From positions 1 through 30,563 of the IMG/VR virus record IMGVR_UViG_3300034418_004388: 30,563 bases of DNA; one strand, 5' to 3'. This document shows positions 21,331-26,250 of this stretch, piece after piece. The notes beneath the pieces are model-generated. The model did no database searches and was not told the DNA's origin. It worked only from the letters and a program-made list of their open reading frames with translations. The position numbers and the translations under genes were made by a program. Within the stretch, counting starts at the first letter, position 1, and the number at the start of each line of letters is the position of its first letter. The DNA is from a virus.

Positions 21331-21365
21331 GTATGGGATTATATATTAAACATTTATATTGTCAA
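21331..21365 (-). promoter_or_regulatory. Sigma70-like promoter with TCCCATAC box
   Basis: Minus strand: TTGACA (21360-21365), 16-bp spacer, TATAAT (21338-21343), both perfect consensus. It is followed at once by CCCATAC (box 21331-21338 on the minus strand, TCCCATAC). It overlaps the last bases of the upstream gene and serves the 21083-21304 and 20787-21092 genes. The box recurs at two other promoters here. Confidence 0.75.
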
Positions 21366-23091: not shown

Positions 23092-23120
23092 TTTATAGAC
23101 TACTTGACAAACTTTGTCAA
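23092..23120 (-). promoter_or_regulatory. Consensus promoter with TTGACAAA-C-TTTGTCAA palindrome
   Basis: Minus strand: TTGACA (23115-23120), 17-bp spacer, TATAAA (23092-23097), followed by the AACAGAAAGGA leader of the 22136-23065 gene. The -35 lies in a perfect 8-bp inverted repeat with one central base (23104-23120). The same palindrome gives TTGACA on the plus strand (23104-23109) with TATATG 17 bp on (23127-23132), a weaker plus promoter towards the island. Confidence 0.75.
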
Positions 23121-24110: not shown

Positions 24111-24788
24111 ATGAATACAAAAGAAGCGTGGACCGCTGTTGGCGGTTTAAGTAAACCCTCCAAGATGCCTGGCTGGGCATATGGTATACCAGCTGCGGAA
24201 TGCAAGACTGGTAAGAAGCTCCAGAACGTAGAAGGCAGCACCTGTTATGGCTGCTACGCTCTGAAAGGTTGTTATGTATTTAAAGTTGTGCAGGATGCAC
24301 AATACAGGCGCCTGGCGTCCATCAGGACCGCTGTCTGGGTTGATGCAATGATTACATTAATCAATTCTAAAAAATCAAAAGAATTTAGATGGCACGACTC
24401 AGGAGACGTACAGGACTTAGAGCATTTAAAAAAGATCTATGAAGTATGCAAAGGCACGCCAGATGTCAAGCACTGGATGCCGACGCGCGAGGCGTGGGTG
24501 AAGCCTTACCTGAAGGATGCGCCTTCTAATCTGGTAATACGATTCTCAATGCCAATGGTGGACCAGGAAGCAGCAGCGAGCTGGCCGAATACGTCGACTG
24601 TTACCAGTGATCACAGCGTGGACAATTGCCCAGCCTTCAGGACCGATAAAACAGGGACTGTTCACACGTTGGAAGAGTACACAGCTATGACCAAACCAAA
24701 GAAAAAAGAATTAGATCTGGGACACTGCGGAAGCTGCAGACGTTGCTGGAACCCTGATATAAAAAACATAGCATATGGCCAGCACTAA
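24111..24788 (+). CDS. Gp88-family Cys-rich protein
   Basis: 225 aa. LSKPSKMPGWAYGIPAAECK at residues 13-32, STCYGCYALKGCY (43-55), EFRWHDSGDVQDLEHLKKIY (91-110), HWMPTREAW (121-129) and NLVIRFSMPM are the hallmarks of the phage gene-product-88 family (first named in mycobacteriophages). Cys at 31, 45, 48, 54, and the C-terminal C206-C209-C212 suggest a zinc or Fe-S site. Its activity is unknown. AGAAAGG lies before the ATG. It is the largest gene of the plus-strand island, GC-richer than its surroundings, and flanked by CAAGCNN arrays. Confidence 0.75.
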   Translation: MNTKEAWTAVGGLSKPSKMPGWAYGIPAAECKTGKKLQNVEGSTCYGCYALKGCYVFKVVQDAQYRRLASIRTAVWVDAMITLINSKKSKEFRWHDSGDVQDLEHLKKIYEVCKGTPDVKHWMPTREAWVKPYLKDAPSNLVIRFSMPMVDQEAAASWPNTSTVTSDHSVDNCPAFRTDKTGTVHTLEEYTAMTKPKKKELDLGHCGSCRRCWNPDIKNIAYGQH

Positions 24789-24848: not shown

Positions 24849-24995
24849 CAAGCAACAAGCGCGGAGCATCAAGCACCAAGCCGTCAAGCGTCAAGCGGCT
24901 CATCGAGCAGCAAGCGTTGAATGTGGTCCCAATCATCAAGCGCCAAGCACCGAGATTCACGATGATCGACAAGCAAACCGTGGATCGCCAAGCTC
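24849..24995 (+). repeat. CAAGCNN heptad array C (degenerate)
   Basis: 24849-24898: CAAGCAA, CAAGCGC, GGAGCAT, CAAGCAC, CAAGCCG, extra T, CAAGCGT, CAAGCGG. Further copies: 24911 CAAGCGT, 24937 CAAGCGC and CAAGCAC, 24970 CAAGCAA, 24989 CAAGCTC. The array shares with array A a T insert after a CG-ending heptad. It overlaps the 3' end of the minus-strand nuclease gene. Confidence 0.75.
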
Positions 24996-25261
24996 TCATA
25001 AAGTTTAATGGAGCGAGGATCGAGGGTCTGAAGAAGGATAAAGTTTCGCTTTGTATGGGTCATATGAAACAATTTTTGATGAGGCGAAAACGATACTTTT
25101 TTAGTCTTTGTAACTTTTAATTCAACAGTAAAAAAACCACAATTATCATTGTAACCCAACAAATCTGGTACACCAAAGGATGCCCAAGATTCTAGTCTAG
25201 TCCAAGTAATTTTAGGTGTATTTTTCTTAACTAACTTCCAGAATTTTGACTCAGCTTTCAC
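24884..25261 (-). CDS. VRR-NUC-type endonuclease
   Basis: 125 aa. SKFWKLVKKN..TWTRLESWASFGVPDLLGY (E24, D33) then FFTVELKVTK (E47-x-K49) and FSPHQ (Q62) give the E..GVPD..ExK..Q pattern of PD-(D/E)XK nucleases of the VRR-NUC type, small Holliday-junction or flap-like cutting enzymes in phages. The final 35 residues (LVDHRESRCLALDD etc.) are read through the antisense of the CAAGCNN array. It is third in the 25622-24884 operon. Convergent with the gp88 gene, it shares no bases with it. Confidence 0.7.
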   Translation of the reverse strand: MKAESKFWKLVKKNTPKITWTRLESWASFGVPDLLGYNDNCGFFTVELKVTKTKKVSFSPHQKLFHMTHTKRNFILLQTLDPRSIKLYESLAIHGLLVDHRESRCLALDDWDHIQRLLLDEPLDA

Positions 25262-25269
25262 AGTAACGT

Positions 25270-25461
25270 CTAATCAACCAAGATGAATAATCTATGGGAT
25301 TCTTTTGCACCAATTAATTTATTTGTGACAAGTTTTACTTCTCTAATATCTTTAGGATGTTTCCAATTTGCACGTGAAACTATCTGAACTCTTGAGTTTT
25401 GACCAACTTCAGAATTATCTACAAACTTTTTTAATATTTGTATAAGTAATTTTGTTTGCAC
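25270..25461 (-). CDS. Small hypothetical protein with GTG start
   Basis: 63 aa. It begins with GTG overlapping the TAG of the upstream gene (TAGTG), with AAAGGTG ahead. The sequence is basic: QILKKFVDNSEVGQNSRVQI then VSRANWKHPKDIREVKLVT and ESHRLFILVD at the end, a short beta-rich domain. It lies 8 bp upstream of the nuclease gene in the same operon. Function not recognised. Confidence 0.5.
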   Translation of the reverse strand: MQTKLLIQILKKFVDNSEVGQNSRVQIVSRANWKHPKDIREVKLVTNKLIGAKESHRLFILVD

Positions 25462-25622
25462 TAGATAGCACCTTTGTTTCTAAATTGACTAACAATCTCA
25501 GAAACTTTTTGTTCTATTTCTTTTATTTTTTCTTGTAGTTTAGTTATTTCTTTTTCCTGTATTCTAATAACCTTTTCAAGATCGTCAGGTTTCATATTGT
25601 ACAAGTCTCTCATTTTCTCCAT
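25461..25622 (-). CDS. 53-aa coiled-coil protein, predicted leaderless
   Basis: MEKMRDLYNMKPDDLEKVIR then a heptad coiled coil (EITKLQEKIKEIEQKVSEI). The start at 25622 is chosen because it lies 6 bases after the -10 of the bidirectional promoter, so the transcript should start at the A of ATG. If translation starts at the ATG at 25613, GGAG of codons 1-2 would serve as ribosome site. The frame extends upstream across the promoter to 25718, which is unlikely to be translated. A dimerising small regulator or nuclease partner is possible. Confidence 0.55.
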   Translation of the reverse strand: MEKMRDLYNMKPDDLEKVIRIQEKEITKLQEKIKEIEQKVSEIVSQFRNKGAI

Positions 25623-25624
25623 AA

Positions 25625-25657
25625 TTGACTTATAGCGTAACATAAGGTATGAGTCAA
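25625..25657. promoter_or_regulatory. Near-palindromic bidirectional promoter
   Basis: Plus strand: TTGACT (25625-25630), 17 bp, TATGAG (25648-25653), then 6 bases to the TerS ATG at 25660. Minus strand: TTGACT (25652-25657), 17 bp, TATAAG (25629-25634), then 6 bases to the ATG at 25622. Each -35 overlaps the other promoter's -10, so only one polymerase can bind. Both expected transcription starts coincide with the A of the start codon. Confidence 0.7.
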
Positions 25658-25659
25658 GT

Positions 25660-26250
25660 ATGGGAAGACCAAAAGAACTCACTCCAAAACAAATGAAGTT
25701 TGCAGAGTTGTTAGTCACTAACGAAGGTAAAATGACTGCAACAGAAGCTGCAAAGCAGGCTGGCTATGAACCAGAACGTGCAAGATTTACTGCATCTGAA
25801 CTACGTAATCCAAATAGATATCCATTAGTTGTTAAATATATTGGTGAGTTAAGAACAGAGCTGCAAAAGAAATACGAAGTTACTTATGAGAACCACGTAT
25901 CAGAACTAGCTAAAATTAGAAATGACGCACTGAAGAAGGGTGCTTGGTCTGCAGCTGTAAATGCAGAAGTAGCTAGAGGTAAGGCAGCCGGGTTGTATGT
26001 AGAGCAAAAAATAATTAAGCACGGAAGACTTGAAGATATGACCGAAAAAGAGTTAGAATTAAAAATGAAGACAATCATTGAAGAACATAAAGGATTGTTA
26101 ATTGAAGCAGATTTTGAGGAAGTAAAAGAACAGGTAAATGATAATGGATCTAATGAATCAGATAGCGGAGGAAGCGAGGATAGCGAACAGCAACTCATCA
26201 ACTCCGGAACAGAAGAAGATAGCGACCAAGAACTGGTACAAACTAGTTAG
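25660..26250 (+). CDS. terS: Terminase small subunit
   Basis: 196 aa. GRPKELTPKQMKFAELLVTN then EGKMTATEAAKQAGYEPERA (about 2-41) is the helix-turn-helix DNA-binding head of Terminase_2-type small subunits. A helical oligomerisation core follows (GELRTELQKKYEVTYENHVS; AKIRNDALKKGAWSAAVNAE), then a Glu/Asp/Ser-rich tail. It recognises the packaging site and controls TerL. No ribosome site precedes the ATG, which falls on the predicted +1, so a leaderless mRNA is likely. It is on the strand opposite to terL and converges with the 26243 gene (8-bp overlap). Confidence 0.85.
   Translation: MGRPKELTPKQMKFAELLVTNEGKMTATEAAKQAGYEPERARFTASELRNPNRYPLVVKYIGELRTELQKKYEVTYENHVSELAKIRNDALKKGAWSAAVNAEVARGKAAGLYVEQKIIKHGRLEDMTEKELELKMKTIIEEHKGLLIEADFEEVKEQVNDNGSNESDSGGSEDSEQQLINSGTEEDSDQELVQTS

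Follow-up and report, generated by a model that had tools for sequence, protein, structure and literature searches.

The 37-bp gap between the start codon of the terminase small subunit gene (TerS) and that of its divergent neighbour is probably occupied by two overlapping, opposed sigma70-type promoters, both yielding leaderless mRNAs and unable to be occupied at once. The gap was analysed in a 30.6-kb IMG/VR virus record (30,563 nucleotides, the whole of which is called here the window). The nearest named phage is HTVC027P, whose host is the SAR11 strain HTCC1062, and the element is found in a family of its uncultured marine relatives. The geometry of the element, its conservation, the start codons of unrelated genes abutting it and the loss of Shine-Dalgarno (SD) sites are directly visible in the sequences.

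The letters, the 17-nt spacers and the 6-nt discriminators in both directions are as given in the preliminary description, and the rechecked coordinates are listed in Table 1. The arms of the element are 10 bp each and complementary at nine positions of ten. On the TerS side, the discriminator TCAAGT (25654-25659) is followed by the ATG at 25660 on the plus strand; on the left side, TCAATT (25628-25623) is followed by the ATG at 25622-25620 on the minus strand. The 37 bp between the two ATGs make up the whole intergenic gap, and the predicted transcription starts are 38 bp apart. Each -35 box was originally placed on the opposite -10 box. This overlap exists, but it covers only 2 bp (25629-25630 and 25652-25653), whereas the remaining four bases of each -35 box cover the discriminator of the partner. 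TTGACT-17-TATAAG and TTGACT-17-TATGAG agree with the sigma70 type in their boxes and spacing (-35 near TTGACA, -10 near TATAAT, 16-18 bp); the T at -7 is missing, with G in its place in both -10 boxes of the window. Since both -10 boxes deviate from the consensus at their sixth base, where T is expected, a strict sigma70 scan omits both promoters.

Table 1. Features of the TerS divergence region in the window
Feature	Position	Strand	Evidence
Near-symmetric bidirectional promoter element (predicted), 33 bp, TTGACTTATAGCGTAACATAAGGTATGAGTCAA	25625..25657	both	geometry, conservation in relatives, spacing controls
-35 box TTGACT, candidate TerS promoter	25625..25630	+	best-scoring register, PWM scan
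-10 box TATGAG, candidate TerS promoter; 17 bp past -35, 6 bp ahead of ATG, without T at -7	25648..25653	+	sequence and PWM scan
-35 box TTGACT, candidate leftward promoter	25652..25657 (read 25657-25652)	-	sequence and PWM scan
-10 box TATAAG, candidate leftward promoter; 17 bp past -35, 6 bp ahead of ATG	25629..25634	-	sequence and PWM scan
Conserved centre of the element (its positions 14-20), TAACATA (TAnnnTA); may be a secondary -10 shared by both directions or a contact site for a regulator	25638..25644	both	column frequencies (A15 94%, T19 93%)
Terminase small subunit (TerS), 196 aa, gene 1 of the right transcript, predicted leaderless	25660..26250	+	PF03592 E 2e-7 (above cut-off), phrog_51 E 3e-16
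53-aa coiled-coil protein, gene 1 of the left transcript, predicted leaderless	25461..25622	-	ATG at 25622
63-aa protein, homologue of HTVC027P gp31	25270..25461	-	47% over 55 aa, E 5e-12
Nuclease-like protein (GVPDLLGY..FFTVELKV), gene 3 of the left operon	24884..25261	-	phrog_2165 E 3e-10

The assignment of TerS agrees with both of its profile matches. The first gene on the left was listed as an 85-aa open reading frame with a GTG start, which would run across the promoter; the ATG at 25622 was taken instead. Its 53-aa product has weak profile matches, to coiled coils only. Homologues of gp31 are the usual promoter-proximal left genes among the relatives. The nuclease-like protein has an additional weak match to phrog_5702 (Holliday junction resolvase), and its homologue is located left of TerS in relatives and in phage 023Pt_psg01. 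The left operon is met by a converging plus-strand gene encoding a GP88-family protein (24111-24788; PF17338, E 2e-28). Near-consensus sigma70 promoters (TTGACA-16-TATAAT, TTGACA-17-TATAAA) are observed on the minus strand of the window at 21338-21365, 22131 and 23092-23120, and the minus-strand genes behind them do have leaders and SD sites.

Conservation of the junction in related phages had been set beforehand as the test on which the proposal could fail, and the junction is conserved. Of 201 TerS loci from IMG/VR, 162 have the architecture CAT, 1-6 bp, TTGAY..RTCAA, 2-3 bp, ATG at the point where TerS and its neighbour diverge. This set was assembled partly by pattern scans; the unbiased figure, for TerS loci chosen by the protein alone, is 49 strict elements in 80 loci. 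In the other protein-picked loci the element often lies farther upstream, adjoining an inserted gene that starts at the element edge. Most TerS loci without the strict form have a degraded element with 35-45 bp between the ATGs. The strict elements from all fetched loci comprise 72 distinct sequences, and in many loci the near-palindrome immediately precedes the TerS ATG where TerS itself is only 60-70% identical. The isolate HTVC027P also carries the element, with gp30 inserted and gp31 divergent. The element is absent from HTVC023P, DSL-LC04 and 023Pt_psg01 (TerS identity about 37-41%). The 33-bp version with TTGACA/TGTCAA was not found by pattern scan of IMG/VR, and a scan of genome contigs with a hand-made consensus TerS as the query retrieved no relative.

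The link with TerS was also recovered by searches that did not involve this protein. A pattern consisting of the element and both start codons occurred in 12 contigs; TerS abuts the element in 11 of them, and in the remaining one a NifU-like gene is inserted ahead of TerS. A looser TerS-independent pattern at the exact spacing gave at least 119 sites, nearly all of them TerS loci among the matches listed. Open reading frames of at least 40 aa flank 105 of these sites on both sides, and about seven, among the matches listed, look like chance. Control patterns whose spacing was altered by -3, -1 or +1 bp matched 9, 18 and 15 sites, respectively, and reading frames flanked 0, 4 and 0 of these on both sides; the four were TerS loci again. 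Judged by its conservation, the element is more than a product of chance.

In both directions the start codon lies about where +1 should be, in agreement with the symmetric promoter proposed for this junction. With 6-7 bp between each -10 box and its ATG, transcription in either direction should start at the AUG or within one or two bases of it, and from this distance we infer that both messages are leaderless. Leaderless transcripts, invoked in the original proposal as known from Alphaproteobacteria, are indeed established there (PMC7566282). Both genes start with AUG, and the only SD-like sequence is a weak AAGG before TerS of the window. The claim that neither gene has an SD site thus stands for the first genes of the family, with median anti-SD energies of 0.35 (right) and 0.0 (left), but not in full for the window, where AAGG at 25644-25647, 12 nt before the TerS ATG, has -4.0 kcal/mol against the anti-SD. 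This AAGG is upstream of the predicted start site and is not retained in the relatives. Where TerS is displaced to the second position, it has an SD site (median -4.1). The two least SD-like of the 86 genes of HTVC027P are gp30 and gp31. The statement that almost every other gene of the window has an SD site largely holds: among 32 genes of the window that were scored, 78% reach -4 or better, vs 23% of random 17-mers of HTVC027P.

Registers were compared using an approximate promoter weight matrix (PWM). By this matrix, the leaderless register, with the -10 box 6-7 bp before the ATG, is the best on both sides of the window, on 76 of 82 left sides and on 32 of 82 right sides; for 28 of the 82 right sides a different register, at 23 bp from the ATG, scores higher. 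The low number on the right is due to the clade with TTGAT, whose right-hand promoter scores poorly by the same approximate matrix, and this counts against the reading with two promoters.

The genes at the element edges are not the same throughout the family. The first genes fall into at least seven sequence clusters on the left and at least six on the right, and each of the 82 distinct junctions has an ATG right beside the element on either side, with gaps of 1-6 bp on the left and 2-3 bp on the right. On a quick TerS tree the left family is replaced at least six times, the right-hand insertion state (a gene before TerS) switches about nine times, and the inner sequence is turned round four times, including between the window lineage and its sister L004. 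The element therefore outlasts its neighbours. In L081 (3905-3947, TerS turned to plus) a NifU-domain gene (PF01106, E 2e-21), its ATG abutting the element, stands between the promoter and TerS, and in L011 a 2OG-Fe(II) oxygenase-like gene occupies the same place. With respect to TerS, the asymmetric core (window 25635-25647) has opposite orientations in the window lineage and L004, and likewise in L173, L185 and L086 compared with their relatives. Such a flipped core looks as if the element had inverted.

These replacements leave no fixed antagonistic pair of genes. The preliminary description had proposed that packaging and a nuclease operon are alternative outputs of a switch, and this specific claim was rejected: the partners are interchangeable, two genes of the left operon precede the nuclease-like gene, and no regulator of such a switch was identified in the window. 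A regulated switch gains no support from these sequences, and when bidirectional promoters of E. coli were tested experimentally, competition was observed only at high activity (PMC12825309).

Many phages keep the packaging site next to TerS. The tight linkage to TerS in the pattern scans could thus mean that the element is a pac or cos site, but this is highly improbable, as genes are inserted between the element and TerS and the element stays beside the new first gene. Moreover, some lineages retain TerS although their palindrome is disrupted, and packaging does not need ATG spacing on both sides.

Dyad symmetry might also point to an operator for a dimeric regulator, perhaps TerS or another phage protein, with transcription starting elsewhere. 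Element positions 5 and 29 co-vary, being complementary in 96% of cases vs 57% expected, and conserved spacer positions (14-15 and 18-21) would fit such a protein as well. However, the change of base 5 from C to T, which hits both arms together, occurs mostly within one clade. Across the dyad, only TTGAY and TA are almost fully complementary; the other arm positions pair at the level expected from independence. Natural spacing variants bear on the same question. Two 32-bp lineages (L049 and L055; L223 and L238) and one 37-bp lineage (L042-L044) alter the distance between the half-sites, whereas the distance from TTGA to the opposite TA keeps promoter spacing, with about 16-17 bp from -35 to -10 and 5-7 bp to the ATG. 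L049 and L055 have TTGACA-17-TATTGT, L223 and L238 have TTGACT-17-TAAAGT in the TerS direction, and L042 has TTGACA-17-TATTTA/TATAAA. In L006 and L007 the right arm TCAA is lost, and TTGACC-17-TA..-6-ATG is retained on the TerS side; a left operon was looked for next to this promoter and not found, so that the left -35 arm vanishes where the left gene is missing. A simple repeat of the ACAAGCG type is observed left of the TerS promoter in these two loci. An operator would also leave aside the fact that the element edges coincide with the starts of unrelated genes on either side. Taken as sequence evidence, the spacing variants, the arm loss and the dyad pattern favour two promoters over an operator, which we regard as quite unlikely.

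An RNA hairpin formed by the arms is possible in close relatives of the window (-12 kcal/mol, z -4.3). This reading was rejected because the pairing of the arms is lost in two other clades.

In the column frequencies TTGA and TCAA are set by the search pattern and hence were not counted as evidence. The TA at element positions 9-10, which was not fixed in any search in the TerS direction, is 99% conserved. No T occurs at -7 on either side in any of the 70 distinct 33-bp elements, which counts against the two promoters; G or A is found instead, as would follow from the overlap, in which the base at -7 pairs with the fifth base of the opposite -35 box. T at -7 is present only in variants freed from the overlap between -35 and -10 (L049, L223, L007). 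The spacer is also conserved (T14 79%, A15 94%, T19 93%, A20 66%, and TTAC), and for A15, T19 and TTAC this is beyond the needs of a promoter and points to an additional bound protein or to a shared central -10 box. The second possibility would make the central TAnnnTA a bidirectional -10 box of the E. coli type, with leaders of about 10 nt without SD sites and with accessory outer arms. It would provide the T at -7 that is missing from the outer boxes, and starts 18 bp apart are the most frequent arrangement known (PMC12825309). On the other hand, there is no good -35 box 17 bp upstream of the central box (TTCTCC in the window), the invariant TTGA and TA at 17 bp are left unexplained, and L049 has no central TAnnnT in the TerS direction, yet its outer boxes are perfect. 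A shared central box is therefore unlikely to be the main arrangement.

Neither symmetric bidirectional promoters nor leaderless mRNAs of phages are new in themselves. The E. coli bidirectional promoters described by the Grainger group (PMC12825309) are similar in their near-symmetric DNA, in the polymerase binding in two orientations and in the steric block of simultaneous binding. However, they share one -10 box and their starts are 10, 18 or 23 bp apart, whereas the phage element has separate -10 boxes, is itself the whole intergenic region and would have both ends at an AUG; only the central TAnnnTA is a candidate for a box of the E. coli type. In the available text on the Pr/Pc promoters of plasmid pLS20 (PMC4207663), the -10 and -35 boxes of one divergent promoter are proposed to lie on the -35 and -10 boxes of the other; this text describes two promoters of unequal strength, one weak and one strong, together with the regulator Rco, DNA looping and a long leader, and reports neither symmetry nor a leaderless pair. 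In the cI/cro immunity region of phage PY54 (PMC4488713), divergent genes are expressed from leaderless mRNAs starting at AUG, as determined by RACE, but with separate promoters, an operator and two repressors. Here the first genes of the window are TerS and a small coiled-coil protein, neither of them repressor-like, and no repressor was found among the first genes searched. The locus therefore does not match a lambda-type cI/cro switch, in which divergent genes code for repressors that act on operators between them. The divergent promoters of EcoRV-type restriction-modification systems (PMC5333194) have overlapping cores and exclusive polymerase binding; they differ in the control by a C protein, and the EcoRV C transcript is not leaderless.

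The arrangement that we consider likely is thus a pair of opposed sigma70-type promoters fused into one near-palindrome. Each -35 box (TTGAY) would cover the discriminator and the last two bases of the -10 box of its partner. RNA polymerase would bind in either orientation, never in both simultaneously, as two polymerases are expected to exclude each other sterically, and both messages would be translated as leaderless mRNAs. Where TerS and its neighbour diverge, the element would provide a short promoter that favours neither direction, and a gene could be joined to it on either side as long as its ATG is suitably spaced. It is conceivable, though rather doubtful, that the element is a portable two-way module, at which genes are swapped or inserted by recombination at a symmetric, invertible sequence, since no leader or SD site is needed; competition between polymerases would then fix the ratio of the outputs and limit the dosage of TerS.

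The papers found in this work contain no description of a conserved promoter that fills the entire gap between two genes and gives leaderless messages on both sides. The natural variants separate promoter geometry from the palindrome, and HTVC027P on HTCC1062 offers an isolate system in which the prediction is testable. If the two promoters act as proposed, leaderless translation would be widespread at one locus of abundant marine phages.
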